Shown one piece after another: positions 27,236 through 54,114 of a DNA stretch of 64,000 nt. The first letter of the stretch is position 1. The number at the start of each line of letters is the position of its first letter. The DNA comes from an uncultured Pelagibacteraceae bacterium (lineage in GTDB: Bacteria; Pseudomonadota; Alphaproteobacteria; Pelagibacterales; Pelagibacteraceae), in contig CACHIV010000001.1 of the NCBI GenBank assembly GCA_902579985.1, forward strand, positions 1 to 64,000. Direction: 5' to 3'. The position numbers were made by a program, and so were the translations under genes. The notes under the pieces are model-generated. The model was given only the letters and a program-made list of their open reading frames with translations. It was not told the DNA's origin and did not search any database.

Positions 27236-28246
27236 ATGAAATTAACTAAAACAATATCAGCGCTATTTTTATCTTTAGTGCTGCTAATCGGAAGTTTAGG
27301 GCAAGCGAATGCTGCTAAAAGACTTCACGCAGCTATTGCAGACTGGACAGGTGGAATAATCACTTGTGAAGTAGCTGTAGCAATTCTTGAAAGAGAATAT
27401 GGATATAAAGTTAAACAAACAGTATTTCCATCAGGAACTGGTTTATGGGAAGCAATTGCAGCAGGAGAAATTGATTTTGCTTGCGAAAGCTGGCCAAGCT
27501 ACGCTGAAGCAGATTCTGTGATGCTAAATGAGGATCTAATCTATGAAGGTAAGGTAGTTGGATCTTACAGTGGAGATGGAAGTGTAGATCTTTTAGGTAC
27601 ATCTGGAATAATCGGACTTTCTGATTACTGGATACCAAAATACGCTGCTGAGGAATTTGGTATCAAAACTTGGAAAGATCTAAATAAACATAAAGCTAAA
27701 TTTGCTACTATAGAAACTGGAAACAGAGGTAGACTTATCGGATGTCCAGTAGCTGGTTGGAATTGTCATGACCAAAAAAGACTTGATATTTTAGGAATTG
27801 ACTTTCAAGCAGATGAGCTTGGTACTGAAGCAGCCGCTATTGCAGAAGCAAAAGCAGCTTACATGAGAAAAGAACCATTCCTATTATATCTATGGTCACC
27901 ACATTGGTTCTTTGGAGAGTTTGACATGGTAGGAGTTCAACTTCCAGAGCACAAAGTTTGTGATCCTGATACATTTACAGAAGCTGGTAACTGGAAAGAT
28001 TGTGGAAAAAAAGGTTGGCCTGGAACAGGTTGGGCAAAAGATTACACAATGAACTACGGTAACCCAGCTGTGTTTGCAAAAGCTGAAAACGCAGACGCTA
28101 AGAAATTCTTCGAAAATATGTCTTTACAAAATATCGATCAAGCAAAAATGCTTGTTGAAGTAGATATTAAGAAAAGAGATGTTAAAGAAGTTGTTGCAGA
28201 GTGGTTAGACAACAATCCAGACAAATGGAAGCCTTGGCTTAAATAA
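27236..28246 (+). CDS. proX: Glycine betaine/proline-binding protein (OpuAC/ProX-like)
   Basis: Signal peptide; AIADWTGGIITCEVAVAILEREYGYKV, EIDFACESWPSY, FLLYLWSPHWFFGEFDMVGVQLPEH. Confidence 0.92.
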   Translation: MKLTKTISALFLSLVLLIGSLGQANAAKRLHAAIADWTGGIITCEVAVAILEREYGYKVKQTVFPSGTGLWEAIAAGEIDFACESWPSYAEADSVMLNEDLIYEGKVVGSYSGDGSVDLLGTSGIIGLSDYWIPKYAAEEFGIKTWKDLNKHKAKFATIETGNRGRLIGCPVAGWNCHDQKRLDILGIDFQADELGTEAAAIAEAKAAYMRKEPFLLYLWSPHWFFGEFDMVGVQLPEHKVCDPDTFTEAGNWKDCGKKGWPGTGWAKDYTMNYGNPAVFAKAENADAKKFFENMSLQNIDQAKMLVEVDIKKRDVKEVVAEWLDNNPDKWKPWLK

Positions 28247-28270
28247 TACTTTTTAAAAATACTAAAAATT

Positions 28271-28298
28271 AAAGGCCCTTTTATAAGGGCCTTTTTTT
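28271..28298 (+). terminator. Intrinsic terminator after proX
   Basis: Perfect 10-bp stem AAAGGCCCTT/AAGGGCCTTT, loop TTAT, then a T run. Confidence 0.92.
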
Positions 28299-28413
28299 AT
28301 GCATTTAATTCATCGAAGTATATTAAATAAATAAAGAAAAATACTATTATACAATTAAGAATAAAAATTATTTTTTAAAGTATAGAAAAGATTATTATAT
28401 AATTTTTGAAAAC

Positions 28414-29547
28414 TTATAATTTATATTTTTTTAAGTATTCCAACCTACCAATAATTTCATCTCTATCTAAATAGTATCCTTGCAAATGACGATGTCCTGA
28501 ATTTGGATTAAAAGCAGTTCTTCCATGTAAAACTCGTCTATTATTAAAGGAAAAAATATCACCAGGACCTAATCTAAATTTTATTTGAAATTTATCGTCA
28601 TGTAAAAGATTTCCAAATCTATGATGAGCTTTATAAACTTTATCCATTTGTTCTGGATGACAGTCTAAAGCATCCATTGTTGCAACACTAAATCTTATAT
28701 CATGAAAATCATTATCCTTAGTTAAACTAATTGCCGGAGCATGAAAACTTCTGTGAGACTCTTGTGTATAATCTTTATCTCTAAATTTTAATGGAACTGA
28801 AATTAGTGTTTCAAAAATTTCTTTTTCATTGTTTCTTAAATATTCAGCAACTGCAAAACCATCAATGGCTGAGGAGTCTCCTCCCTCAGCATCATTTATC
28901 AAACAATGCAAAAACTGATAACCAGGAGGAAGTTCAAACCATGGTAAATCCATATGATTTCTAAGAGCATGCGCAGTATAAGCAGAGTTATTAGGTTTTG
29001 GAATATTGATTACCTCAAATGGTGTTTTAAAAAAGGTTTCTCTAACATGGCTAATTCTATGAAGAACATTAAAAGCAGATTTTTTTTCTATTGGAGAATT
29101 TTTAACTATAGCTATACCTTTGTGATGAAGTAATTCCAACCATCTTACCAAACCCTTATCAGAATAAATTATCTCATCATGATCTATGTAAATTGATTCA
29201 AAATTTTGTAACAAGCTATTATCCCATAGTTGATATGGGGAGACATATTTCTTTTTATTATTTATTGTATAACAATTTTCTCTAAGCCACTTAGGATCAT
29301 AATAACTAGTGTGATTACCTTCGCTCCATTCTATTTTTAATTTTCCATCATTATTTAAAGAATAATTTTTTGGATTTATATCTTTTGAAACTTCTAAAAT
29401 ATTAAACATTCTATGGTTTGAGTCTTTATCATGAGCAGTTGGACAATTGTCTCTTAACCAAAGATAATTAAAATTACTTTGCTCACCATCACTCCATTTA
29501 ACAGTTAAATTTTTATCTTTTTTTTCAACATTAGCAATTTTAACCAT
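28414..29547 (-). CDS. Gamma-butyrobetaine dioxygenase-like (DUF971-type N-terminus plus TauD fold)
   Basis: LTVKWSDGEQSNFNYLWLRDNCPTA; NHMDLPWFELPPGYQFLHCL; FNNRRVLHGRTAF ... HLQGYYLDRDE. Confidence 0.82.
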   Translation of the reverse strand: MVKIANVEKKDKNLTVKWSDGEQSNFNYLWLRDNCPTAHDKDSNHRMFNILEVSKDINPKNYSLNNDGKLKIEWSEGNHTSYYDPKWLRENCYTINNKKKYVSPYQLWDNSLLQNFESIYIDHDEIIYSDKGLVRWLELLHHKGIAIVKNSPIEKKSAFNVLHRISHVRETFFKTPFEVINIPKPNNSAYTAHALRNHMDLPWFELPPGYQFLHCLINDAEGGDSSAIDGFAVAEYLRNNEKEIFETLISVPLKFRDKDYTQESHRSFHAPAISLTKDNDFHDIRFSVATMDALDCHPEQMDKVYKAHHRFGNLLHDDKFQIKFRLGPGDIFSFNNRRVLHGRTAFNPNSGHRHLQGYYLDRDEIIGRLEYLKKYKL

Positions 29548-29643
29548 ATTTAAATTCTTAATATTTTTTAAAGGTTTTTCAATAAATTTTTGTCAAAAAA
29601 ATTCTTGTTTTTTACCCTCATACAATATTAAAGTAATATCGCT

Positions 29644-30429
29644 ATGAATAAATCACTTAGAAATAAAAAAATTTTAATATCTGCGGGTGCTTCCGGTATT
29701 GGTTGGGCAACTGCTAAAGTCTGTCTATCAAAAGGGGCAACTGTTTATATATGTGATATAGAATCAAAATACTTAAATAAAGTTAAAAAACATCGGCTTA
29801 ACAATAAAAAATTATTTGTTTATCACTGTGATGCCTCAAATGAGATAGATGTAAATGAATTATTTATAAAAATTTCTAAAAGAACAAAAAAACTAGATTG
29901 TTTAATTAATAATGTTGGTGTCGCTGGACCAACAGGAACTATTGAAAAATTATCTTCTAAACACTGGGAAAAAACTTTAAAAATAAATGTAATCAGTCAT
30001 TTCTATTTTACTAAACTTGCTATTCCAATGTTAAAAAGAAATAAAGGGGGATCAATTATTAATATGGCATCTGGAGCAGGTATAATGGGTTTTCCACTTA
30101 GATCTCCTTATGCAGCAAGCAAATGGGCTATAGTCGGAATAACTAAAACTTTAGCAATGGAGCTTGGAAAATTTAAAATAAGGGTAAATGCAATATGTCC
30201 TGGAACTGTAAAGGGTGATAGAATGGTTAGAGTAATAAGGGATAAATCTAAATTTTTAAAAATTTCAAAAAAATCCATAGAAAAGGAATTTATTTCTATG
30301 GCATCGATTAATAGCTGGATTTATGAAGAAGACATTGGATATATGTGTAGCTTTTTAATTTCAAATGATGCAAAAAGGATTTCAGGTCAAATAATAGGGG
30401 TCGATGGTAATGCGACGAGACTGGATTAA
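29644..30429 (+). CDS. Short-chain dehydrogenase/reductase
   Basis: ILISAGASGIGWATAKV, NNVGVAGP, SPYAASKWAIVGITKTLAMELGKFKIRVNAICPG. Confidence 0.9.
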   Translation: MNKSLRNKKILISAGASGIGWATAKVCLSKGATVYICDIESKYLNKVKKHRLNNKKLFVYHCDASNEIDVNELFIKISKRTKKLDCLINNVGVAGPTGTIEKLSSKHWEKTLKINVISHFYFTKLAIPMLKRNKGGSIINMASGAGIMGFPLRSPYAASKWAIVGITKTLAMELGKFKIRVNAICPGTVKGDRMVRVIRDKSKFLKISKKSIEKEFISMASINSWIYEEDIGYMCSFLISNDAKRISGQIIGVDGNATRLD

Positions 30430-31370
30430 TTTCTAATTTTCTGTTCGTATTTTTTTCTTAGTTTTAATAAATCAACTAAATATTCGTCTCTAATATTAGA
30501 AATTTTTGCCACTGATTTTCCTTTAGATTGTTTTTTTGTTCCACTTACCAATTTATTAATTAGTTTTTTTGACAATTTGGGAGATCTAAGTTTAGTCCAA
30601 GGAAGTTTTAAAGCAGGTCCAAATTGTTCTAACATATGTTTCATTCCAAACTTTCCTCCGGCAAGATGAAAAGTTAAAAAAGTGCCCATTAAAGACCATC
30701 TTAATCCCGGTCCATCTTCAATAGCTCTGTCTAAATCCTCAGTGCTTGCGTGGCCCTCATTTATAATGTGAAGACCTTCTCTCCATAATGCTTCTTGTAA
30801 TCTGTCAGATAAATAACCTGGTAGTTCATGTTTAACCATAATGGGCTTCATAGATATGGATTTATAAAATCTATTTGCTTTTGTTAGAATTGCTTCAGAT
30901 GTTTTTTTTCCAGGTACAATTTCTAAAGCTGGCAAAATATAAACAGGATTAAATGGATGTCCTATTATGCCTCTTTTTGGGTTTTTACATTTTGAATAAA
31001 TTCTACTTGGAAGTAATCCAGATGAGCTAGATGAAATAATTGCATTTGTTTTTGCAAATTTTCCGATTTTGCTAATTAACTTGATTTTCAAAGAATAGTT
31101 TTCAGTTGCACATTCTTGTATAAAATCTGCATCTTTCAATGTTTCTTTAAGAGATGTTAAATATTTTAAATTTTTAAGATTAATTTTTTTTTTATTAAAA
31201 AGTTTTTTTGTATGAGGCAATGCTCTTTTTATTTCAACTATTAGTTTTTTTTTTAACTTAAGATCTTTGTCAAATGCATAAACAATTTTATTATGAGCCA
31301 AAAAGCGAATAATCCATCCGGTACCAATCACACCAGTACCAACTACTGCAACCTTTTTTATTTTAGACAT
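30426..31370 (-). CDS. 3-hydroxyacyl-CoA dehydrogenase family, probable L-carnitine dehydrogenase
   Basis: VAVVGTGVIGTGWIIRFLAHN, IIGHPFNPVYILPALEIVPG, GGKFGMKHMLEQFGPALKLPWTKL. Confidence 0.75.
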   Translation of the reverse strand: MSKIKKVAVVGTGVIGTGWIIRFLAHNKIVYAFDKDLKLKKKLIVEIKRALPHTKKLFNKKKINLKNLKYLTSLKETLKDADFIQECATENYSLKIKLISKIGKFAKTNAIISSSSSGLLPSRIYSKCKNPKRGIIGHPFNPVYILPALEIVPGKKTSEAILTKANRFYKSISMKPIMVKHELPGYLSDRLQEALWREGLHIINEGHASTEDLDRAIEDGPGLRWSLMGTFLTFHLAGGKFGMKHMLEQFGPALKLPWTKLRSPKLSKKLINKLVSGTKKQSKGKSVAKISNIRDEYLVDLLKLRKKYEQKIRN

Positions 31371-32257
31371 TACTTGTGTTTAACAAGCTTTAACTTTTCT
31401 CTTGTCTCTGAAGGAGTCATTATGGAATAACCTAATTCATCAACTATTCTTATTGCCTTTTCAACTAATTGAGCATTAGTTGCAAGCTTTCCTTTGGATA
31501 AATATAAATTATCTTCAAGCCCTACTCTTGGATTTCCACCCAATAAAACTGTTTGGGCAACAAATGGCATTTCATTTTTTGAAATAGCAAATCCTGACCA
31601 TACACCCTCTTTTGGCATTATATCTTTCATTGCTTGTATTGCTAAAGTCGTTGCAGGTGCTCCCCAAGGTATTCCAAGGCACATTTGAAACATGGGAGGA
31701 TCACTTAACAAACCTTCTTTATATAGTTGTGAACCAAACCACATATTACCTAAATCAAAAGCTTCGATTTCAGGTTTAACTTTTATATCTTTTAATTTTT
31801 TTGCAGCTTTTCTTAAATCATTTGGAGTGTTAACTGTAATTACTGAACTATCTCCAAAGTTTAAAGTTCCTGCGTCTAATGTACAGATCTCAGGAAGGAA
31901 TTGTTCTACGTTGGCAATTCTTTCCATCACATTTGCCATATCTGTCATTGGTCCAAATTCAAGAGGATTATTCCCTTGTCCAATATCAAGATCTCCACCC
32001 ATTCCAGTGGTTAAATTCAAAATTACATCTGTGCCACTTGATCTAATTCTATCTACGACTTCCTTATATAGTTCTAATCTTCTGCTTGGAGTTCCGTCTT
32101 CCTCTCTAACATGAATATGTGCAATTGCAGCTCCCGCTTTAGCAGCCTCAATAGATGCATTTGCTATTTGTTCTGGAGTTTTTGGTAAATTTGGATGTTT
32201 ACTGGCTGTATCACCAGAACCAGTTACTGCACAAGTTACAAAAACTTTATTGTCCAT
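31370..32257 (-). CDS. BKACE/3-keto-5-aminohexanoate cleavage family, probable dehydrocarnitine cleavage enzyme
   Basis: VTCAVTGSGDTASKHPNLPKTPEQIA, AAIAHIHVREEDG, NLTTGMGGDL, GNPRVGLEDNLYLSKG; adjacent to the carnitine-dehydrogenase-like gene. Confidence 0.8.
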   Translation of the reverse strand: MDNKVFVTCAVTGSGDTASKHPNLPKTPEQIANASIEAAKAGAAIAHIHVREEDGTPSRRLELYKEVVDRIRSSGTDVILNLTTGMGGDLDIGQGNNPLEFGPMTDMANVMERIANVEQFLPEICTLDAGTLNFGDSSVITVNTPNDLRKAAKKLKDIKVKPEIEAFDLGNMWFGSQLYKEGLLSDPPMFQMCLGIPWGAPATTLAIQAMKDIMPKEGVWSGFAISKNEMPFVAQTVLLGGNPRVGLEDNLYLSKGKLATNAQLVEKAIRIVDELGYSIMTPSETREKLKLVKHK

Positions 32258-32292
32258 ATTATTATAATCTAATATAATTCAAAATTAATAAA

Positions 32293-33021
32293 ATGAAAAT
32301 AACTGAATTACAAAAAGATTTAGCTGCAACATTCAGATGGGCCGCAAGATTAAACATGAATGAAGGGGTTGCAAATCATTTCAGTGCGTGTGTACCTGGT
32401 TCATCTACTGATTTTTACGTAAATAAAGCTGGTATTCATTTTAGTCAAATTAAAGCAAGCGATTTAATTTTGGTCACCAAAGATAATATTGAAGATTTGA
32501 AAACTAAACCAGATGTTGTTGATGCTACTGCTATAAGTATTCATGGTACAATTCATCAAAAAGTTCCTCATGCTAAATGTATTTTTCATGTGCATTCTAA
32601 ATATTCAACTGCTTTATCTGCATTAAAAGATGCAATACTTCCACCAATTGATCAAAATACAATGAGATTTTTTAATAGGGTTTCTATTTATAACGAATAC
32701 GGAGGAATGGGTTTTGAAGATGAGTCAATTAAAATGGCTAGTGCTTTAGGAAATAAACAGCATATGCTTTTAGCAAATCATGGAATATTGACTACCGGTG
32801 AAACAATATCTGAAGGATTTGATGCTTTATATTATTTCGAGAAATCTGCTGAGACTTATTTAACAGCGCTATCAACTAATAAAGAATTAAATATTGTATC
32901 AAATGAAATCGCAGAAAAAACAGCTCAAGAATGGTCAGATTATCCTTCTGATCTTGCTAGAGCTCATTTAGATCAAATAAGATTAATTCTGGATAAAGAA
33001 GAGCCAGATTATAAAGATTAA
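32293..33021 (+). CDS. Class II aldolase/adducin-family protein
   Basis: NEGVANHFSACVPG, CIFHVHSKYSTALSAL, MLLANHGILTTGETISEGFDALYYFEKSAE. Confidence 0.88.
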   Translation: MKITELQKDLAATFRWAARLNMNEGVANHFSACVPGSSTDFYVNKAGIHFSQIKASDLILVTKDNIEDLKTKPDVVDATAISIHGTIHQKVPHAKCIFHVHSKYSTALSALKDAILPPIDQNTMRFFNRVSIYNEYGGMGFEDESIKMASALGNKQHMLLANHGILTTGETISEGFDALYYFEKSAETYLTALSTNKELNIVSNEIAEKTAQEWSDYPSDLARAHLDQIRLILDKEEPDYKD

Positions 33022-33022
33022 A

Positions 33023-33853
33023 ATGATAAAAACACATTTACTTTCAGGTGCTATAGGAGCAGAAATAACTGGAATAGACTTAAAAGATTCTTCAATTGAT
33101 AATTGGAATAAAATAAATGATTTATTATTGGAGCATAAAGCTCTTTTTTTTAGAGACCAAGATATATCTTCAGAAGAGCAGATTAATTTAGCTAAGCATT
33201 TTGGACCTTTAGAGAAACATATATATGTAAAAGGAAGAGAAGAATATCCAGAAATTCTAAGAATAATTAAAGAGCCTAATGAAAAACATCAATGGGGTGA
33301 AACTTGGCATACAGATGTTAGTTATAATCCAAAGCCAACAAAAGTAATTATTTTAAGATCTTTAAAAATACCACCTGTTGGTGGAGATACAATGTTTGCC
33401 AATATGGAAGTAGCATATGAAACATTAGATGATGAATTGAAAGATAAAATTAAAGGAAAAAAAGCAGTTCATAGTTCTTTAGGGGCAGCAGCATTTGTAG
33501 ACGCATATAAAGCTATGGAAGGAAATGGAAATTTAGATGAGTACTCTAATTCTCATCCTGTAGTAAGGACACATCCTGAAACTGGAAAAAAAATATTATA
33601 TGTAAATTCAATGTATACAAAAAGAATTTTAGATATGGAAAAAATTGAAAGTGATAAAATTTTAAATCAAATTTTTAAACACCAAGAGAGACTAGACTTT
33701 ACATGTAGATTTAAATGGACTGAAAATGCTGTAGCCATTTGGGATAATAGAAGTACCTTACATCAAGGTCTAACTGATTTTTTTCCTGGTAGGGGTTTAG
33801 GTTATGAAAGGGTAATGGATAGGATTGCTATAGAGGGCGATCACCCACAATAA
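33023..33853 (+). CDS. TauD/TfdA-family Fe(II)/2-oxoglutarate dioxygenase
   Basis: GETWHTDVSYNPKPTKVIILRSLKIPPVGGDTMFANM, VAIWDNRSTLHQGLTDFFPG. Confidence 0.9.
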   Translation: MIKTHLLSGAIGAEITGIDLKDSSIDNWNKINDLLLEHKALFFRDQDISSEEQINLAKHFGPLEKHIYVKGREEYPEILRIIKEPNEKHQWGETWHTDVSYNPKPTKVIILRSLKIPPVGGDTMFANMEVAYETLDDELKDKIKGKKAVHSSLGAAAFVDAYKAMEGNGNLDEYSNSHPVVRTHPETGKKILYVNSMYTKRILDMEKIESDKILNQIFKHQERLDFTCRFKWTENAVAIWDNRSTLHQGLTDFFPGRGLGYERVMDRIAIEGDHPQ

Positions 33854-33863
33854 ATATAAAAAT

Positions 33864-35447
33864 TTGAAATTTGATTATTTAATTATTGGAGCAGGTACAG
33901 CTGGATGCGTTCTAGCAAATAGATTGACTGAAAAATCAGAAAATAAAGTTGCTGTTTTTGAGGCGGGTAAAAATAGTGATATTTGGAAAGTAAACATGCC
34001 ACTTGCTATTCTTTATGCAATGCATGATCCAAAATATAATTATAAATATTATTCAGAACCTGAACCTTACTTAAATAACCGAAGATTATTTTGTCCTAGA
34101 GGAAAAATGGTTGGTGGGTGCTCAGCACATAATGGAATGGTTTATGTTAGAGGGAATAAAAATGATTATGAAAGATGGGTATCATTTGGATTAAAAAATT
34201 GGAGTTATGAAAAGGTTTTGCCTTTTTTTAAGAAAATTGAAACCTGGTCAGAGGGAGAAAATGAATTTAGAGGTGGCAATGGTATACTTCCAATTAACCA
34301 ATCTAAAAATAAAAATCCCTTATTCAGAGCCTTCTTAAATTCAGCTAAAGAAGCAGGATACAACTTGAATAGTGATATGAATGGAGAAGATCAAGAAGGA
34401 TTTGGTATGTATGACGTTACTATCCATAAAGGCGAAAGAGCTAGCGCATCAAAATATTATTTAAATCCTGCTAAAAAAAGGAGTAACTTGCAAGTTTTTA
34501 CTCAGTCTTTTGTAGAAAAAATAATTTTTGAGGGAAAAAAAGCAATTGGTATTGAAGTCAAGATTAAAAATAAAGTCGAAAAAATTTATGCAAATAAAGA
34601 AATTATTCTTAGTGGCGGTTCAATAAACTCTCCACAATTACTTATGATTTCTGGAGTGGGTCCAGCTGATCATTTAAAAGATCAAGGTATCAAAGTAGTT
34701 CACAATTTAAAGGGGGTTGGGAAAAATCTCCAAGATCATTTAGAAACTTATATACAACAAGAATGTAGAACACCTGACACTTTATATTCGTACGTTAATA
34801 AATTGAGAATGTTAAAAATAGGTATTCAATGGTTTCTAAATAAGAGTGGTCCATGTGCAACTTCTTTTTTAGAAGCAGGAGGATTTTGTAAATCATCAGA
34901 AGATAAGAAATATCCAAATATACAATTTCATTTTTTTCCTGCTTTTGTAATTGATCATGGAAATGTAGACCCTGACAGACATGGATATCAACTTCACGCT
35001 AGTTTAAATCAACCAAAAAGTAGAGGTTATATTAATCTTAAGACCTCTAATCCTTATGATTATCCTAAAATTCAATTCAATTATTTAGAAAATGAATATG
35101 ACTTAAATGAAACAGTCAAATGTGTAAAAGTAGCAAGAAAAATATTAAACCAAGATGCAATGAAACCTTATGCGGGTAAAGAAATTGGCCCTGGAGAAAA
35201 TGCTAAAAGTGACAGTGAAATTGCCGAATATATCAGATCTAAGTCCGAAACTGCTTATCATCCCTCATGTACTTTAAAAATGGGCATAGATGACTTGTCA
35301 GTTGTTGATGAAAAATTAAAAATTCATGGATTAGAAAATATTAGAGTTGCAGACGCTTCGGTAATGCCTGAGATAACAAGTGGTAACTTAAATGCACCCA
35401 CTTTGATGATAGGAGAGAGAGCTTCAGATTTTATTTTAAACTCATGA
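33864..35447 (+). CDS. GMC-family FAD oxidoreductase (choline dehydrogenase-like), TTG start
   Basis: DYLIIGAGTAGCVLANRLTE, GGCSAHNGMVYVRG, LSGGSINSPQLLMISGVGP, YHPSCTLKMG, NLNAPTLMIGERASD. Confidence 0.9.
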   Translation: MKFDYLIIGAGTAGCVLANRLTEKSENKVAVFEAGKNSDIWKVNMPLAILYAMHDPKYNYKYYSEPEPYLNNRRLFCPRGKMVGGCSAHNGMVYVRGNKNDYERWVSFGLKNWSYEKVLPFFKKIETWSEGENEFRGGNGILPINQSKNKNPLFRAFLNSAKEAGYNLNSDMNGEDQEGFGMYDVTIHKGERASASKYYLNPAKKRSNLQVFTQSFVEKIIFEGKKAIGIEVKIKNKVEKIYANKEIILSGGSINSPQLLMISGVGPADHLKDQGIKVVHNLKGVGKNLQDHLETYIQQECRTPDTLYSYVNKLRMLKIGIQWFLNKSGPCATSFLEAGGFCKSSEDKKYPNIQFHFFPAFVIDHGNVDPDRHGYQLHASLNQPKSRGYINLKTSNPYDYPKIQFNYLENEYDLNETVKCVKVARKILNQDAMKPYAGKEIGPGENAKSDSEIAEYIRSKSETAYHPSCTLKMGIDDLSVVDEKLKIHGLENIRVADASVMPEITSGNLNAPTLMIGERASDFILNS

Positions 35448-46937: not shown

Positions 46938-47981
46938 TTAATGATTTATTGATGAAGAAAAATTCCAAGAACAATCAAAACTAGGCACGTAAACCCTAGA
47001 TAATTTAGTATTTCCAAAGTGATGATAAAAAACATTAAGCCAATTTTCAACTTGGTGGGGTTTTTTATCTTGGCTACCAACTTGTGCTGTAATAACACCT
47101 TTTGGTTTTAAAATTCTTACTAAAGAGTCCATATTTTTTGATGCTAAATCAATACAAAATTGATCATCATTTAAATCAACGAATATATGATCATAAGTAT
47201 CTTGTTTAACTGATTTGATACTTTCAAATGCATCTCCCCAAACACATTTAACCGAATTTTTTTCAGTAGCTTTTTTTGCAATCTCTCCAAGGTGTTTATT
47301 ACAAACTTCTACTACTTCAGGGTCAAGCTCATACCAATCAATAAAGTTAAATCTTTTAGAAATACATTCTCTTGCAACACCTCCGTCTCCTCCACCAATT
47401 ATTGCTGCTCTTTCATTTGAATTGTTTAATTTTAATCCTGCACCAACAAAAGTTGAACTATAAAGATGCTCATCTGTTGATGCTACTTGAATTTCACCGT
47501 CAATAAATAAAGATTTACCAAATTGTTCTAAATCTAAAATTTCAATATGTTGACCAACTTTAGATTTAAAATCTTCCAATACATCATTTACGACATATGA
47601 TTTTTGTAATCCTGGGGAGCTGTAAATATCGTAATAGAGAGATTTAGTATCTCTATCAAATTCCTTTTTAACTATTCTTTTGTATTCAAATTCATTTTTA
47701 ACAATATCTATCGCAACAGATGGGCTTATTTTTCCACATGTAAAAAAATCAAAACTTATTATTCCTTTTTCTGGGAAAGTATGAAAGCTAATATGGCTCT
47801 CAGCCAATAATGCTAAAATAGTAAATCCCTGAGGTTCAAATTTATACTTTGAAATATTTAAAATAGTAACATCAGCCGCTTTTGCAATTTTGTTAATTAC
47901 TTTTTCGAAAACTGAAGGATCATACTCCTTCATAGTTCCGATTATATCTAAAGTAATGTGCTCACCTACTTTTTTTACCAA
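46938..47981 (-). CDS. Fusion of S-adenosylmethionine decarboxylase (SpeD) and spermidine synthase (SpeE)
   Basis: N-term LAESHISFHTFPEKGIISFDFFTCG (pyruvoyl self-cleavage site); C-term LFIDGEIQVASTDEHLYSS, AAIIGGGDGGVARECI, WYELDPEVVEVC, FVDLNDDQ. Confidence 0.92.
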   Translation of the reverse strand: MVKKVGEHITLDIIGTMKEYDPSVFEKVINKIAKAADVTILNISKYKFEPQGFTILALLAESHISFHTFPEKGIISFDFFTCGKISPSVAIDIVKNEFEYKRIVKKEFDRDTKSLYYDIYSSPGLQKSYVVNDVLEDFKSKVGQHIEILDLEQFGKSLFIDGEIQVASTDEHLYSSTFVGAGLKLNNSNERAAIIGGGDGGVARECISKRFNFIDWYELDPEVVEVCNKHLGEIAKKATEKNSVKCVWGDAFESIKSVKQDTYDHIFVDLNDDQFCIDLASKNMDSLVRILKPKGVITAQVGSQDKKPHQVENWLNVFYHHFGNTKLSRVYVPSFDCSWNFSSSINH

Positions 47982-48080
47982 TTTTTATTCTCCCGTTTCT
48001 AATAAATAGTAGCTAAACAAATTTTTTTACTTCTTTCAAATAAAAAACTACTGTAAACTTTATCCACAAGGAATGTAATT

Positions 48081-50114
48081 TTGAAAAATAATTGGTCAAA
48101 CGCAGAAGCAAATAAATATATAAAAAAGTATAGAGCTCTTGGACACTCAAAAGATATGGCTCTTCGGGTATATACAACAAGACTATTGGGAAGAAATAGT
48201 GAGTTAGTTTTACATGGTGGAGGAAATACCTCCGTAAAAACATCAGTTAAAGATATAGATGGGAAAAAATACGATGTTCTATGTGTTAAAGGTAGTGGTT
48301 GGGATATGGCCGAAATTGAACCTGAAGGCTTACCGGCAGTAAAATTACAACCTCTGCTATCACTTAAAAACAAAAAATACCTAAGTGATGAAGATATGGT
48401 TGCATATCAAAAAAGAAATCTAATTGATATAAAATCTCCAAATCCTTCTGTAGAAACTTTTCTTCACGCTTTTTTACCTTTTAAGTTTGTGGATCATACA
48501 CATTCAGATGCAATAATGAATGTCACTAATAGATCAAATGGACAAGATTTATGTAAAAAAATTTTTGGATCTAAAGTAAGTATTGTACCTTATGTTATGC
48601 CAGGTTTTGGTTTAGCTCAAAAAATTAACGAAGTTTATTCAAAAAATCCAAAAATTAATTGTTTAATACTTTTGAACCATGGAATTTTTACTTTTGATAA
48701 TGATGCTAAAAGATCTTATGATTTAATGATTAAATATGTATCTATTGCTGAAAAAACTATAAAGAAAATTAAAAGAAAAAAAATAAAACAAATAAAAAAA
48801 TATAATACTCAATTTAAACCTCATGAAATTGCTCCTATTTTAAGGGGATTATTATCAGAAACTAAAGAACAAAAATTTATTTTAAATTATAGATCTAATA
48901 AAAAACTAAATTATTTTATTAATGGTAGAGAGGTGAAAAGATATTCTACTATAGGAACCGCTACTCCAGATCATGTTATTAGAGTAAAGCCTTTTCCTTT
49001 GATAATTACTCCAAAACAAAATTCAAATATTGAAGATTTTAAAAAGTTAGCTGATAGAAGTTTTAAGGATTATAGAAAAAAATATATAAAATATTTTAAT
49101 AATAATAAAAGAAAAGTAAAAGGTAAAAAGATAATGCTTGATACTTCTCCAAGAGTAATTTTAGTTCAGAATGTTGGATTGTTTAGTGTAGGGGATAACT
49201 TAAATGCTTCTAAAATTGCAGGAGATTTAACTGAAACAAATGCTAGAGTAATTTCTTCAGTAGAAGAAACGACAAAATATAAATTTATACCAGAAAAAGA
49301 TTTATTCGATGTTGAGTACTGGTCTTTAGAACAAGCTAAAATCAAAAAAACAAAACAAGCTCTTCAAGGAAATGTTGTAGTGATCACTGGTGGTTTTGGA
49401 GCAATAGGATCTGCAACTTATAAACTTTTTAAAAGTTATGGAGCGGAAATAATCTTATTAGATTATAACGCAAAAAAAGTAAAAGAAATGCAGTCAAAAA
49501 TTAAAGATCTTTGTTTACATTGCGATGTTAGAAGTAAAAATAGTGTTGAGAAAGCTTTTAAAATAATCAGCGAACAATTTGGTGGAATCGATATTTTAAT
49601 TTCAAACGCTGGTACTGCAATTGGTGGATCAATAGCTGAAATAGATGATAGAATTTTAAGAGAAAGTTTTGAGGACAATTTTTTTTCACATCAAAATTGT
49701 GCTTCTGAAAGTATTAAGATTATGAAAAAACAAAATACTCAAGGGTGTTTATTATTCAATATTTCAAAACAATCAGTAAATCCTGGAAAAAACTTTGGTC
49801 CTTATGGTCTTCCAAAAACTGCTTTATTAAGTCTATGCAAGCAATATGCGGTTGATTATGGATCTTTTGGAATAAGATCTAATGGAGTGAATGCCGATAG
49901 AATAAGAAGTGGCTTATTGAATGACGGTATGATTAAATCGAGAGCAAAAGCTAGAGAAATTTCTACTGATGAGTATATGAAAGGAAATCTGCTTTTAAAT
50001 GAAGTCAAAGCAGAAGATGTTGCTAAAGCATTTTTTCATTTAGCGGTTTCCAAAAAAACTACTGGTGCAGTTTTAACTGTTGATGGTGGAAATATTGCTG
50101 CATCTTTAAGATAA
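48081..50114 (+). CDS. Bifunctional class II aldolase/short-chain dehydrogenase (TTG start)
   Basis: N-term LVLHGGGNTSVKTSVKDIDG, FLPFKFVDHTHSDAIMNVTN, LILLNHGIFTF; C-term GNVVVITGGFGAIGSATYKLF, ISNAGTAIGG, GPYGLPKTALLSLCKQYAVDYG. Confidence 0.9.
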   Translation: MKNNWSNAEANKYIKKYRALGHSKDMALRVYTTRLLGRNSELVLHGGGNTSVKTSVKDIDGKKYDVLCVKGSGWDMAEIEPEGLPAVKLQPLLSLKNKKYLSDEDMVAYQKRNLIDIKSPNPSVETFLHAFLPFKFVDHTHSDAIMNVTNRSNGQDLCKKIFGSKVSIVPYVMPGFGLAQKINEVYSKNPKINCLILLNHGIFTFDNDAKRSYDLMIKYVSIAEKTIKKIKRKKIKQIKKYNTQFKPHEIAPILRGLLSETKEQKFILNYRSNKKLNYFINGREVKRYSTIGTATPDHVIRVKPFPLIITPKQNSNIEDFKKLADRSFKDYRKKYIKYFNNNKRKVKGKKIMLDTSPRVILVQNVGLFSVGDNLNASKIAGDLTETNARVISSVEETTKYKFIPEKDLFDVEYWSLEQAKIKKTKQALQGNVVVITGGFGAIGSATYKLFKSYGAEIILLDYNAKKVKEMQSKIKDLCLHCDVRSKNSVEKAFKIISEQFGGIDILISNAGTAIGGSIAEIDDRILRESFEDNFFSHQNCASESIKIMKKQNTQGCLLFNISKQSVNPGKNFGPYGLPKTALLSLCKQYAVDYGSFGIRSNGVNADRIRSGLLNDGMIKSRAKAREISTDEYMKGNLLLNEVKAEDVAKAFFHLAVSKKTTGAVLTVDGGNIAASLR

Positions 50115-50115
50115 A

Positions 50116-51192
50116 TTATTTTGACTTAAATAATTTCTTTAATCCTCTTTCTGATGCCTCACACAAACCTTTTTCTGTAATCAATCCTGAAACATATTTA
50201 GCTGGTGTTACATCAAAAGCTAAATTCATTGATTTACTTTTTTTATGATATATTTGTATTTTTTTAACTTTTCCATTTTCATCTAAACCTTCTATGTGAG
50301 ATAGTTCTTCTGAATTCCTTTCTTCTATTGGTATATCTTTATAATTTTTTATGTTCCAATCAATTGTTGAACTAGGCAGTGCTACATAAAAAGGAACATT
50401 ATTATCTTTAGCAGCTAATGCTTTAAGGTAAGTGCCAATTTTATTACAAACATCACCGGTAGCCAATGTTCTATCTGTTCCAACAATACACATATCAACT
50501 TGACCTCTTTGCATTAAGATGCCACCTGTATTATCTGCTATAATAGTATTAGGTACATTTTCTTCATTTAATTCGTAAGAAGTTAAATTTGCTCCTTGAT
50601 TTCTTGGTCTTGTTTCATCAGCCCATACATGAACTGGTATTCCTTTTTTATGTGCATGATAAATTGGAGAAGTTGCTGTTCCCCAGTTAATTGTTGCAAG
50701 CCATCCAGCATTACAATGAGTTAAAATATTTACTGTATCTTTTTTTTTATTATAAATTTCTTCAATTATTTTAAGACCATTTAGCCCAATATTTTCACAG
50801 AACTTAACATCTTCCTCACAAATTTCTTTTGCTTCGTTTAATGCTATTTCTAAAATTTTGTTACTATTAACTCCAGATAATCTATTTATCATTCTATCAA
50901 CTGCCCACTTTAAATTTATAGCTGTTGGTCTTGAATTAATTAAATTTTCTGCTGATTTTTTTAAAAAAGATTGATCGTTGTTCTCAATAATTGATAAAAC
51001 TAATCCATAAGCTGCTGTTGCTCCAATTAAAGGAGCTCCTCTAACTTCCATTATCTTAATAGCATTAATTGCATCTTTTATTGTTTTAAGATCCTTAATT
51101 ACAAATTTATGAGGAAGTTTTGTTTGATCAATAATTTTTACAACATTTTGTTCAAACCAAATTGTACGATATTCTTTACCTTCAATTTTCAT
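50116..51192 (-). CDS. mtnA: S-methyl-5-thioribose-1-phosphate isomerase
   Basis: EVRGAPLIGATAAYGL, TINWGTATSPIYHAHKKG, VWADETRPRNQGA, MCIVGTDRTLATGDVCNKIGTY. Confidence 0.92.
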   Translation of the reverse strand: MKIEGKEYRTIWFEQNVVKIIDQTKLPHKFVIKDLKTIKDAINAIKIMEVRGAPLIGATAAYGLVLSIIENNDQSFLKKSAENLINSRPTAINLKWAVDRMINRLSGVNSNKILEIALNEAKEICEEDVKFCENIGLNGLKIIEEIYNKKKDTVNILTHCNAGWLATINWGTATSPIYHAHKKGIPVHVWADETRPRNQGANLTSYELNEENVPNTIIADNTGGILMQRGQVDMCIVGTDRTLATGDVCNKIGTYLKALAAKDNNVPFYVALPSSTIDWNIKNYKDIPIEERNSEELSHIEGLDENGKVKKIQIYHKKSKSMNLAFDVTPAKYVSGLITEKGLCEASERGLKKLFKSK

Positions 51193-51206
51193 TTTTTTGT
51201 TTTATC

Positions 51207-51767
51207 TTATACATTCTGTCCATTAACGATTTTTTCAAGTTCATCTATTAAACTATTGCCTCTAATAACTGGGTGGATTTTTTTTGCATCTTTTAAATCT
51301 TTAAGAGCTTTTTGATATAATTTTAAATCAATATATATTTGAGCTCTTCCTGATAGTGCTCCAAAATGTCTTGGTTCTAGATCTAACACCTTACTAATAT
51401 CCTTTAAAGATCTTTGATAATCTTTCATATAAAATAATAAAGTAGCTCTTTTATTCCAGGCTTCTGACCATTCTGAGTCTGTTTTAATAATATTAGTAAA
51501 GACTTTTAATGCATACTCATATTGACCTTGATACATAAGTTTAGTGCCAAATTCTAATTTTTCAGTCAATTCATTTTGATTTGGATGTTTGTTCCAAAGA
51601 GCCCAAATTTTTTTTTCTAAAATATCCCCCTCCTGAGCGTTATTTATCATACTTAGATCATTAAAAAGTTTATTAAGCTCAGTAACTTGAATTAAATTAT
51701 GGTTTTTTGCATTAATATTTAAAATTAAAATTAAATTTAATATTAAAATATAAATTATTTTTTTCAT
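51207..51767 (-). CDS. Exported TPR-repeat protein
   Basis: Signal peptide; KLMYQGQYEYALKVFTNIIKTDSEWSEAWNKRATLLFYMKDYQRSLKDISKVLDLEP. Confidence 0.8.
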   Translation of the reverse strand: MKKIIYILILNLILILNINAKNHNLIQVTELNKLFNDLSMINNAQEGDILEKKIWALWNKHPNQNELTEKLEFGTKLMYQGQYEYALKVFTNIIKTDSEWSEAWNKRATLLFYMKDYQRSLKDISKVLDLEPRHFGALSGRAQIYIDLKLYQKALKDLKDAKKIHPVIRGNSLIDELEKIVNGQNV

Positions 51768-52676
51768 TTAATTTAATTTCGAATTAATAAAATTTAAAAT
51801 TGATGAATTGTAATATTCAAAACAATCTGCTCTATCTATATCATGAAAGTTTTTAATTATTTCTCCCCAAACTTTACAGACTCTTCCGTTCACCTTATTA
51901 TCTTCTGAAACTACTATTCTTTCAACACCAGGTATATCTTCAACCCAGTCAGACAATAAACCATCATATGGATCTTTAGGATGAGTAAAAACTAAAGCAG
52001 GTAAATTATTGCTCTTTAGAATGTCATTTATTTGAGATTGTCTCATGTCAGCTGGTCCATCACCTGACTTTTTTCTAAATTTTTCAAGAGCTTTTTCTAT
52101 ACCTACTTTTTTTACCTTTGTGCTTCTTGTTAATTTTCCATAACAAGCTTGCATATAAGATATTCCGCCAGCAACAATATCTTGATGTCTTGCTAACAAC
52201 ATCATTGTCATCCACCCTCCACATGATCTTCCAGTAATAAATATTTGATTTTTTTTAAAGCCTTGGCTAGCAAAATCATCAATTAGTTTTAAATTCGCAT
52301 CTAATCTTTTTTCAAGTTTTGGCTTACCTTTATAGGGAGTTTTAAATTTTTTTTTATTCCATAACCTTTTATAATCATCCCCCTTAAGTTTACCAGTGCA
52401 GAAAATATAAACTAATATTTCTTTACCCTTTACTTTTTGTCCTACTAAGGATGCCATATTTTTCATGCCTCCCTTCCAAACACAGTCACTGGATGGACCG
52501 TCATGACTACTTTGTCCATGATTATAAATTAACAAAATTTTATTTTCTGGATCACTTATTTTCTGATCTTTAGAATAACTAACATTATTACTCAAAAAAC
52601 CATCCTTAGTCATTTTGTCTGCATGAACATTTGTGCAAAATAACAAAATAGATAATAGTAAAAATATTTTTTTCAT
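51768..52676 (-). CDS. Exported alpha/beta-hydrolase-like protein
   Basis: Signal peptide; ILLIYNHGQSSHDGPSSD, IFITGRSCGGWMTMMLLARH nucleophile elbow. Confidence 0.7.
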   Translation of the reverse strand: MKKIFLLLSILLFCTNVHADKMTKDGFLSNNVSYSKDQKISDPENKILLIYNHGQSSHDGPSSDCVWKGGMKNMASLVGQKVKGKEILVYIFCTGKLKGDDYKRLWNKKKFKTPYKGKPKLEKRLDANLKLIDDFASQGFKKNQIFITGRSCGGWMTMMLLARHQDIVAGGISYMQACYGKLTRSTKVKKVGIEKALEKFRKKSGDGPADMRQSQINDILKSNNLPALVFTHPKDPYDGLLSDWVEDIPGVERIVVSEDNKVNGRVCKVWGEIIKNFHDIDRADCFEYYNSSILNFINSKLN

Positions 52677-53545
52677 TTATTTAAAACTCTTCCAGCTATT
52701 GTTTTTAGTTTATCTTTTGTTTTTTGAGTTCTTTTTTCTGGAGCGGTTATAATTGCAACATCCAAACAATTATTAGTTGGATCTTTTGGATCTATATGTT
52801 TTTCAAAATTTTCTATTAAATTTTTAATCATATTTTTTGCTTTAACAGCATTTCCTAAAAGTACTTTTATTACTTGTTGAACATCTACATTTTCATGGTC
52901 AGGATGCCAACAATCATAATCTGTTATCATTGAAACAGATGCATATCTAATTTCAGCTTCTCTTGCCAATTTAGCTTCCGGCATGTTGGTCATACCAATT
53001 ACATCCGCTTTCCATGATCTATATAAATTTGATTCTGCTAATGTTGAAAATTGAGGTCCTTCCATAACAACATATGTTCCACCTCTTTGATATTCTATAT
53101 TTTCTTTTTTAATAGCCTGTTCGCAGGCATTCATTAATCCATTAGATGTAGGATGAGCCATAGAAACGTGAGCAACTATCTCATCATCAAAAAATGTTTT
53201 ATTTCTAGCGAAAGTTCTATCTATAAATTGATCGACTATTACAAATTTTCCTGGAGGTAAATCTTCTTTTAAAGAACCAACCGCCGAAACTGATAAAATA
53301 TCTGTTACACCAAGTTGTTTTAATGCGTCTATATTAGCCCTAAAATTTATATTAGATGGATTGATAAAATGACCTCTTCCGTGTCTTGGTAAAAAAAAAA
53401 CTTCTTTATTTTTATAATTAGTTTTTAATATTTTATCAGAAGGTTTTCCCCAAGAGGTATTTATATCTAGTAATTCTCTTTCTTTAAATTCCTCAACATC
53501 ATATAAACCGCTTCCACCAATAATAGCTAATTTATTGTTTACCAT
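52673..53545 (-). CDS. mtnP: S-methyl-5'-thioadenosine phosphorylase
   Basis: LAIIGGSGLYDVEEF, FLPRHGRGHFINPSNINFRANI, VVMEGPQFSTLAESNLYRSWKADVIGMTNMPEAKLAREAEI. Confidence 0.93.
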   Translation of the reverse strand: MVNNKLAIIGGSGLYDVEEFKERELLDINTSWGKPSDKILKTNYKNKEVFFLPRHGRGHFINPSNINFRANIDALKQLGVTDILSVSAVGSLKEDLPPGKFVIVDQFIDRTFARNKTFFDDEIVAHVSMAHPTSNGLMNACEQAIKKENIEYQRGGTYVVMEGPQFSTLAESNLYRSWKADVIGMTNMPEAKLAREAEIRYASVSMITDYDCWHPDHENVDVQQVIKVLLGNAVKAKNMIKNLIENFEKHIDPKDPTNNCLDVAIITAPEKRTQKTKDKLKTIAGRVLNK

Positions 53546-53586
53546 ATCAAAAAAATAATTTATCTATTTATATATCTTAATTTATT

Positions 53587-54114
53587 ATGGATTTAAAAGA
53601 ATATATTAGATCAATTCAGGATTATCCAAAAAAAGGAATTCTATTTAGGGATATCACTACATTAATTAAAAATGAAAAAGCTTTTACTGAAACAATTAAT
53701 CAAATAATTGAAAAATCTAAAAAATTCAAATTTGATAAAATTGCAGCAATAGAGTCTAGAGGATTTGTTTTTGCTTCAGCTATTTCTTATTTAGTTAAAA
53801 AACCATTCATCATGTTGAGAAAAAAAAACAAACTTCCTGCAGAGACTCATTCAATAGATTTTGAGTTAGAATATGGAACTGCTACCATAGAAGTTCATAA
53901 AGACTCCATTGATGAAAATGACTCAGTTTTAATTATAGATGATTTAATTGCAACAGGAGGCACAGCAGAGGCTGCTGCGAAACTTGTAGAGATCTCTGGA
54001 GGAAAAGTTGCAGCTTTTATATTTGTAATAAATCTCTTTGACCTTAATGGATCCAATAAACTTAGCAAAAAAAATTATAACGTGGAAAGTTTGATGGATT
54101 TTCCAGGACATTAA
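53587..54114 (+). CDS. apt: Adenine phosphoribosyltransferase
   Basis: SIQDYPKKGILFRDITTLI, IAAIESRGFVFA, VLIIDDLIATGGTAEAAAKL. Confidence 0.94.
   Translation: MDLKEYIRSIQDYPKKGILFRDITTLIKNEKAFTETINQIIEKSKKFKFDKIAAIESRGFVFASAISYLVKKPFIMLRKKNKLPAETHSIDFELEYGTATIEVHKDSIDENDSVLIIDDLIATGGTAEAAAKLVEISGGKVAAFIFVINLFDLNGSNKLSKKNYNVESLMDFPGH

Follow-up and report, generated by a model that had tools for sequence, protein, structure and literature searches.

Cells that make polyamines inevitably produce methylthioadenosine (MTA) as a by-product, and one described route for its disposal is the dihydroxyacetone phosphate (DHAP) shunt of Rhodospirillum rubrum, Rhodopseudomonas palustris and extraintestinal pathogenic Escherichia coli (ExPEC), which consists of MtnP (or Pfs together with MtnK), MtnA and the class II aldolase Ald2 (PMC5893883, PMC10986504). 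DrdKIA of Bacillus thuringiensis is a related system (PMC6079011), and both Ald2 and DrdA are known aldolases of 5-methylthioribulose-1-phosphate (MTRu-1-P) and 5-deoxyribulose-1-phosphate (PMC5893883, PMC6079011). Here, we describe a locus in a 64,000-nucleotide stretch of DNA (hereafter the window; contig CACHIV010000001.1 of assembly GCA_902579985.1) from an uncultured bacterium of the SAR11 family, in which mtnP and mtnA accompany a gene encoding a 677-amino-acid fusion of a class II aldolase with a short-chain dehydrogenase/reductase (SDR; 48081..50114, + strand). We assign a probability of roughly 80% to the reading that this fusion acts last in an MTA salvage pathway of the DHAP-shunt type, where it would cleave MTRu-1-P and oxidize the resulting aldehyde within one protein.

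As in the DHAP shunt and DrdKIA, a class II aldolase would act on the MTRu-1-P supplied by MtnP and MtnA, and MtnB, MtnC and MtnD would not be needed; unlike the single-domain Ald2, DrdA or FucA-type enzymes of those systems, the aldolase of the fusion is a distant class II member joined to an SDR, so that the aldehyde step, left to an unidentified alcohol dehydrogenase in the known shunts, would be built into the fusion and probably be oxidative. A comparable architecture is found in RhaEW (YuxG; TIGR02632), a bifunctional L-rhamnulose-1-phosphate aldolase/L-lactaldehyde dehydrogenase (Rodionova et al. 2013, PMC3870299). Gene fusions that join successive steps after MTRu-1-P are also represented by MtnBD of Tetrahymena and DEP1 of plants (PMC2759508, PMC6079011), but these belong to dehydratase routes leading to methionine, whereas the route considered here is aldolase-based and would end in DHAP and a C2-thioether product. 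The fusion matches, over its full length (residues 1-677), the NCBIfam family NF006192/PRK08324.1-6 (892.2 bits against a cut-off of 639), the name of which, "bifunctional aldolase/short-chain dehydrogenase," gives no substrate or pathway. The DHAP type of shunt and the aldolase-SDR architecture are already known; in the open-access papers searched, we found no earlier link of the fusion family, or of SAR11, to the DHAP shunt, and we propose as new to that literature the combination of the two in MTA salvage, the exchange of the fusion with Ald2-like genes in one slot, and the built-in oxidation.

Exchange of the fusion with a single-domain aldolase

The strongest evidence for the hypothesis comes from the replacement of one gene by another at the same position. 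Among 118 genomes of the SAR11 family, mtnA was identified in 87 and the fusion in 35, and the 54 genomes that possess mtnA without the fusion rule out the simple notion that mtnA occurs only where the fusion does. The fusion lies on the mtnA contig in 33 of the 87 mtnA genomes, always on the opposite strand and at a distance of 40-2603 bp, and a search with Aldolase_II recovered, in another 52, a single-domain class II aldolase of 210-218 amino acids near mtnA, mostly 48-63 bp away. Thus, 85 of the 87 genomes are accounted for, and the remaining two are fragmentary assemblies. In the genomes with the single-domain enzyme, the gene order is mtnP-mtnA-aldolase-speDE on one strand; in the fusion carriers, the slot between mtnA and speDE is filled by the fusion on the opposite strand. 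None of the 87 genomes carries both genes linked to mtnA; an apparent double match in the host genome (G000) was due to an unrelated Aldolase_II protein 17 kb away.

By its profile scores and PDB matches, the single-domain aldolase is FucA/DrdA/Ald2-like and not MtnB-like: it scores 168-212 bits with FucA models and 63-76 with the MtnB model (cut-off 137), and its matches in the PDB are E. coli FucA (E=5e-46) and 6btd (E=5e-37), which we take to be the structure of B. thuringiensis DrdA. In the MtnA and SpeDE trees, genomes with the two types of gene are interleaved, with 9 label changes on the best trees, and strongly supported branches force 6 and 7 exchanges, respectively; because both markers are linked to the slot, the counts refer to exchanges at this locus rather than to events in the species tree. 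The same alternation is apparent across 190 alphaproteobacterial genomes, where, among the 82 that encode mtnA, 27 have the fusion only, 47 a FucA-like gene only, 3 both and 5 neither, that is, exactly one of the two genes in 74 (Fisher p = 1.8e-13; this and the Fisher p-value below treat related genomes as independent). That one gene has replaced the other at this slot again and again argues strongly that the fusion and the single-domain aldolase perform the same step.

Linkage of the fusion to mtnA and mtnP, and the gene content of the locus

Fusions with 45-100% identity were identified in 33 of the 190 alphaproteobacterial genomes, and a further class, at about 30% identity, in 6. Of the 33 genomes in the former class, 30 encode mtnA, compared to 52 of the 157 others (Fisher p = 5e-10), and in 17 mtnA lies within 5 kb of the fusion. 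The arrangement mtnP-(apt)-mtnA-fusion, on one strand and closely spaced, is shared by many members of the Rhodospirillales and by other alphaproteobacteria; counted by locus, mtnA is found within 10 kb at 28 of 29 SAR11 fusion loci, and outside SAR11, 23 of 51 loci show mtnA or mtnP in the flanking sequence retrieved, which was short for some loci. When neighbors were clustered, mtnA and mtnP ranked first, above housekeeping neighbors such as the bc1 complex and apt, and no third conserved partner emerged. The linkage of the fusion to mtn genes is far beyond chance and recurs in dozens of genomes; part of it is vertical inheritance of one operon, and the SAR11 arrangement, convergent and beside speDE, is different and independent. 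The conserved synteny for which the first-pass annotation of this DNA had proposed a test holds among close relatives, which show linkage to mtnA and mtnP and not to sugar genes, and breaks down in one divergent homologue from a genome without mtnA (G147, see below).

Fusions of this type also occur beyond the Alphaproteobacteria. The closest one outside SAR11, with 67% identity, comes from a metagenome-assembled genome labeled Gammaproteobacteria (L086), where mtnA, mtnP and apt are its neighbors; in the tree it is the sister of the SAR11 fusions, reflecting either recent transfer or misbinning. Gemmatimonadota (L099, L100, L103 and L119) encode mtn-type fusions with the catalytic glutamate (Glu125) but without mtnA or mtnP nearby, and these fusions form one clade within the alphaproteobacterial sequences.

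In the window, the genes that the first-pass annotation had named within about 7 kb (46938-54114) were all confirmed as intact open reading frames with strong Pfam and NCBIfam matches. A source of MTA is speDE (46938..47981, - strand), a fusion of S-adenosylmethionine (AdoMet) decarboxylase with aminopropyltransferase that contains the AdoMet_dc and Spermine_synth domains and is divergent from the aldolase/SDR fusion; the SpeD half scores above the TIGR03330 cut-off and the SpeE half under the SpeE equivalog cut-offs. The 5-methylthioribose-1-phosphate isomerase gene mtnA (50116..51192, - strand; TIGR00512, 414.9 bits against a cut-off of 279) and the 5'-methylthioadenosine phosphorylase gene mtnP (52673..53545, - strand; NF006492, 442.3 against 437; TIGR01694, 304.5 against 274.85), both of which belong to the DHAP shunt, are found within 3.5 kb, and the adenine phosphoribosyltransferase gene apt (53587..54114, + strand; TIGR01090, 202 bits against 185.85) follows. 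The fusion does end next to mtnA, at 50114 versus 50116, with the stop codons one base apart; the two genes are, in addition, convergent and therefore not on one transcript, which rules out their co-transcription in the host genome. The start codon of the fusion is TTG, and TTG or GTG starts were observed in 27 of 29 fusion loci checked, mostly from SAR11; this conserved weak start codon may keep expression of the fusion low.

Two genes between mtnA and mtnP, encoding a tetratricopeptide repeat (TPR) protein (51207..51767, - strand) and an esterase-like secreted protein (51768..52676, - strand), are variable in SAR11 and probably not members of the pathway. Across the SAR11 loci L150-L163 and the window (51207-52676), the inserts among mtnP, mtnA and the fusion encode a changing set of small or secreted proteins (TPR, esterase-like and others), and because this set differs among SAR11 genomes, the mtnP-mtnA-fusion locus has the look of a minor hot spot for gene exchange.

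The first-pass annotation had noted that the classical salvage genes are missing from the window, and this result extends to the whole host genome (1.16 Mb in 25 contigs, 95% complete). Its Aldolase_II proteins number just two, the fusion and one of the PRK07490 type (32293-33021), and neither is MtnB; MtnD was not detected in the whole-genome search, no protein scored above the MtnC cut-off (the only match being a 21-bit haloacid dehalogenase (HAD) hit against a cut-off of 128), and a RuBisCO_large search found no ribulose-1,5-bisphosphate carboxylase/oxygenase (RuBisCO)-like protein. For this genome, the universal methionine salvage route through MtnB, MtnC (or MtnW/X) and MtnD (MtnE was outside the search) and the MTA-isoprenoid shunt, which uses a DeepYkr RuBisCO-like protein and a cupin (the cupin was outside the search), are rejected accordingly, and with MtnB, MtnC, MtnD and the RuBisCO-like protein absent, no known consumer apart from the fusion is left for the MTRu-1-P that MtnP and MtnA would make. 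The PRK07490-type protein was rejected as a hidden MtnB or Ald2, given its 35.7 bits with the MtnB model against a cut-off of 137 and its location in a carnitine/betaine-type cluster. This cluster (27236-35447) resembles those for catabolism of gamma-butyrobetaine and carnitine: it encodes proteins similar to gamma-butyrobetaine dioxygenase (318 bits) and L-carnitine dehydrogenase (341 bits), both below cut-off, a choline-dehydrogenase-type glucose-methanol-choline (GMC) oxidoreductase above the NF002550 cut-off, a beta-keto acid cleavage enzyme, a TauD-like dioxygenase and an apparent betaine-type binding protein, along with the PRK07490-type class II aldolase at 32293.

The fusion protein and its relation to the rhamnose enzymes

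The N-terminal class II aldolase domain (amino acids 1-240; 48081..48800, + strand) contains Glu125, His139, His141 and His200 along with the motifs GGGNTS, KGSG and PS(V)E. In an alignment of 44 homologues, Glu125, part of a PSVE motif that reads PSSE in FucA-like proteins, and the three histidine metal ligands are invariant, and the phosphate-binding motifs are kept. We take these residues to be equivalent to E73/H92/H94/H155 of FucA and E117/H141/H143/H212 of RhaD (numbering in part from PMC3870299). The middle region (amino acids 241-425; 48801..49355, + strand) yields weak second Aldolase_II matches in some orthologues (G062, G073 and G082), which suggests a degenerate aldolase-like half-domain. 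The C-terminal SDR domain (amino acids 426-677; 49356..50111, + strand) has the TGGxGAIG NAD-binding loop, Asp461, which terminates the second SDR strand and marks NAD-type enzymes, and the catalytic tetrad, of which Asn533, Tyr575 and Lys579 are invariant and Ser562 is conserved in at least 90% of the 44 homologues. In a confident AlphaFold2 model of the fusion (pLDDT, the predicted local distance difference test score, 87.7; pTM, the predicted template modeling score, 0.88), the best PDB match of the N-terminus is the class II aldolase domain from a Thermoplasma protein (3m4r), and those of the C-terminus are sugar-acid and alcohol SDRs. The aldolase domain, a candidate for the step after MtnA, has the full catalytic set and occupies the slot of the Ald2-like gene, but is not an Ald2 orthologue.

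The fusion shares with RhaEW the domain order (class II aldolase, middle region, SDR), a similar length and about 30% identity, and, by analogy, would be expected to perform the same kind of chemistry, which was measured for RhaEW: cleavage of a 1-phosphoketose to give DHAP plus an aldehyde, followed by oxidation of this aldehyde with NAD+ by the fused SDR. The differences are that its neighbors are mtnP, mtnA, apt and speDE rather than rha genes and that its expected substrate is a 5-substituted ribulose-1-phosphate. With TIGR02632, the window fusion scores 437.7 bits, below the equivalog cut-off of 567.75, whereas the tested fusions of the 30% class from other genomes score 1011-1015 bits. 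The rhamnose isomerase RhaA, for which the first-pass annotation had proposed a search, was not found in the host genome (the rhamnulokinase RhaB was outside the search), and across the 190 genomes RhaA was matched just twice, each time directly beside a fusion of the 30% class (2 of 6). A maximum-likelihood tree splits the rhamnose-type from the mtn-type fusions with 100/100 support, and all 6 sequences of the RhaEW clade have Asp at the position of the invariant mtn-type Glu125; the presence of Asp in place of the catalytic Glu117 of RhaD was remarked for RhaE by the authors of the RhaEW study (PMC3870299). Score, clade, catalytic residue and neighbors together rule out membership of the fusion in RhaEW. 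The first-pass hypothesis of a DHAP-shunt-type fusion is supported by this catalytic glutamate, unlike that of the rhamnose fusions, and by the same-slot replacement of a FucA/DrdA/Ald2-type aldolase.

Proposed pathway, alternatives and significance

From the gene content, the linkage, the replacement of the Ald2-like aldolase, the intact catalytic residues and the separation from the rhamnose enzymes, we infer the substrate, the products, the redox direction and the channeling as follows. Spermidine synthesis by SpeDE would release MTA, which MtnP would convert to adenine, recovered by Apt, and 5-methylthioribose-1-phosphate; MtnA would isomerize the latter to MTRu-1-P. The aldolase domain of the fusion, the proposed MTRu-1-P (and 5-deoxyribulose-1-phosphate) aldolase coupled to an NAD-linked aldehyde dehydrogenase, would then yield DHAP and 2-(methylthio)acetaldehyde, and the SDR domain of the same protein would oxidize the aldehyde to (methylthio)acetate with NAD+. 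Aldol cleavages of this type favor the joined sugar, with equilibrium constants near 1e-4 (PMC6079011), and therefore coupled oxidation would pull the unfavorable cleavage forward and remove the reactive, toxic aldehyde before it escapes. The slot beside speDE in SAR11 suggests that MTA is a main input; 5'-deoxyadenosine, and perhaps other 5-modified nucleosides, are plausible further inputs, and 5-deoxyribulose-1-phosphate derived from 5'-deoxyadenosine would probably be handled as well, giving DHAP and acetate.

Several observations weigh against this interpretation, in addition to the non-independence of the genomes behind the Fisher tests. In the DHAP shunts described so far, the aldehyde is not oxidized but reduced, to 2-(methylthio)ethanol (PMC5893883). 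The fused dehydrogenase is absent from most SAR11 relatives, and the pathway can therefore run without the SDR step. A FucA-like gene accompanies the fusion in 3 of the mtnA genomes, and 5 genomes with the fusion have a strong MtnD as well. About half of the fusions outside SAR11 are not beside mtnA or mtnP, and in G147, a 1.4 Mb alphaproteobacterium without mtnA, a divergent fusion homologue (L164 8674-10704) lies in a sugar-transport/kinase operon; the substrate may thus vary, and the edge of the family may serve other sugar phosphates. By eye, the G147 operon includes ATP-binding cassette (ABC)-transporter, FGGY-kinase and glycerol-1-phosphate-dehydrogenase-like genes, and a FucA-like gene is located about 15 kb off.

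The first-pass annotation had allowed for either oxidation or reduction of the aldehyde. It is unlikely, although a serious contender, that after the same aldolase step the SDR uses NADH to turn 2-(methylthio)acetaldehyde into 2-(methylthio)ethanol, in which case the fusion would contain the alcohol dehydrogenase of the R. rubrum, R. palustris and E. coli shunts: this alcohol is the product in all DHAP shunts studied, in which that dehydrogenase is unidentified (PMC5893883, PMC10986504). The structurally related SDRs, too, are mostly keto/alcohol oxidoreductases. Asp461, however, indicates an NAD-type enzyme, and NAD-type SDRs are usually oxidative in aerobes. The homologous RhaEW cleaves rhamnulose-1-phosphate and then oxidizes lactaldehyde with NAD+, shows no activity with NADH, and forms neither DHAP nor lactate without NAD+ (PMC3870299). 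Because RhaEW is oxidative, the SDR motif is of the NAD type and coupled oxidation would pull the cleavage, formation of (methylthio)acetate is probably the direction taken.

The main substrate might instead be 5-deoxyribulose-1-phosphate, from the 5'-deoxyadenosine of radical AdoMet enzymes, or ribulose-1-phosphate from nucleosides, which we consider improbable. MtnP, MtnA and the DrdA/Ald2 enzymes are promiscuous (PMC6079011, PMC10986504), and the SAR11 single-domain aldolase reaches 163-180 bits with a ribulose-1-phosphate aldolase model, below the cut-off of 300; yet the position of the fusion or aldolase between mtnA and the MTA-producing speDE in SAR11 points to MTA as a main source, and such substrates are in any case compatible with MTA use. 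That the aldolase-fold domain is an MtnB-like dehydratase, with the SDR reducing the diketone in a form of classical methionine salvage, is very improbable: MtnB is likewise a member of the Aldolase_II superfamily and acts on the same substrate, but the host genome lacks MtnC, MtnD and a RuBisCO-like protein to process the product, the gene swapped with the fusion is FucA/DrdA-like and not MtnB-like, and the characterized fusions of the family are aldolases (PMC3870299). It is extremely improbable that the fusion is a RhaEW-type rhamnulose-1-phosphate aldolase/lactaldehyde dehydrogenase placed at this locus by accident, as the shared domain order, the identity of about 30% and the TIGR02632 match at 438 bits are offset by the score under cut-off, the absence of RhaA from the host genome, the separate clade, Glu125 in place of Asp and the recurrent linkage to mtnA and mtnP.

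Returning to the fusion as a coupled MTRu-1-P aldolase and aldehyde dehydrogenase, a broader proposal, which could go either way, is that of a DHAP-(methylthio)acetate shunt for the aerobic disposal of MTA and 5'-deoxyadenosine, in which fused cleavage and NAD+-dependent oxidation would conserve NADH and DHAP and release (methylthio)acetate, and which would have been exchanged repeatedly with the Ald2-type shunt. The fusion, widespread in Alphaproteobacteria, is a candidate for the aldehyde-disposal enzyme that published DHAP shunts leave unassigned, here joined to the aldolase, and a testable substrate can be put forward for a large family so far named only by its domains. The occurrence of two mutually exclusive solutions at one locus makes this pathway step directly testable in laboratory hosts. 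If the proposal is correct, very abundant ocean bacteria would release sulfur as (methylthio)acetate, an end product that the papers searched do not mention for MTA salvage; SAR11 cells lack assimilatory sulfate reduction (PMC5069961), and the fate of the sulfur and carbon of MTA therefore matters for ocean metabolism.

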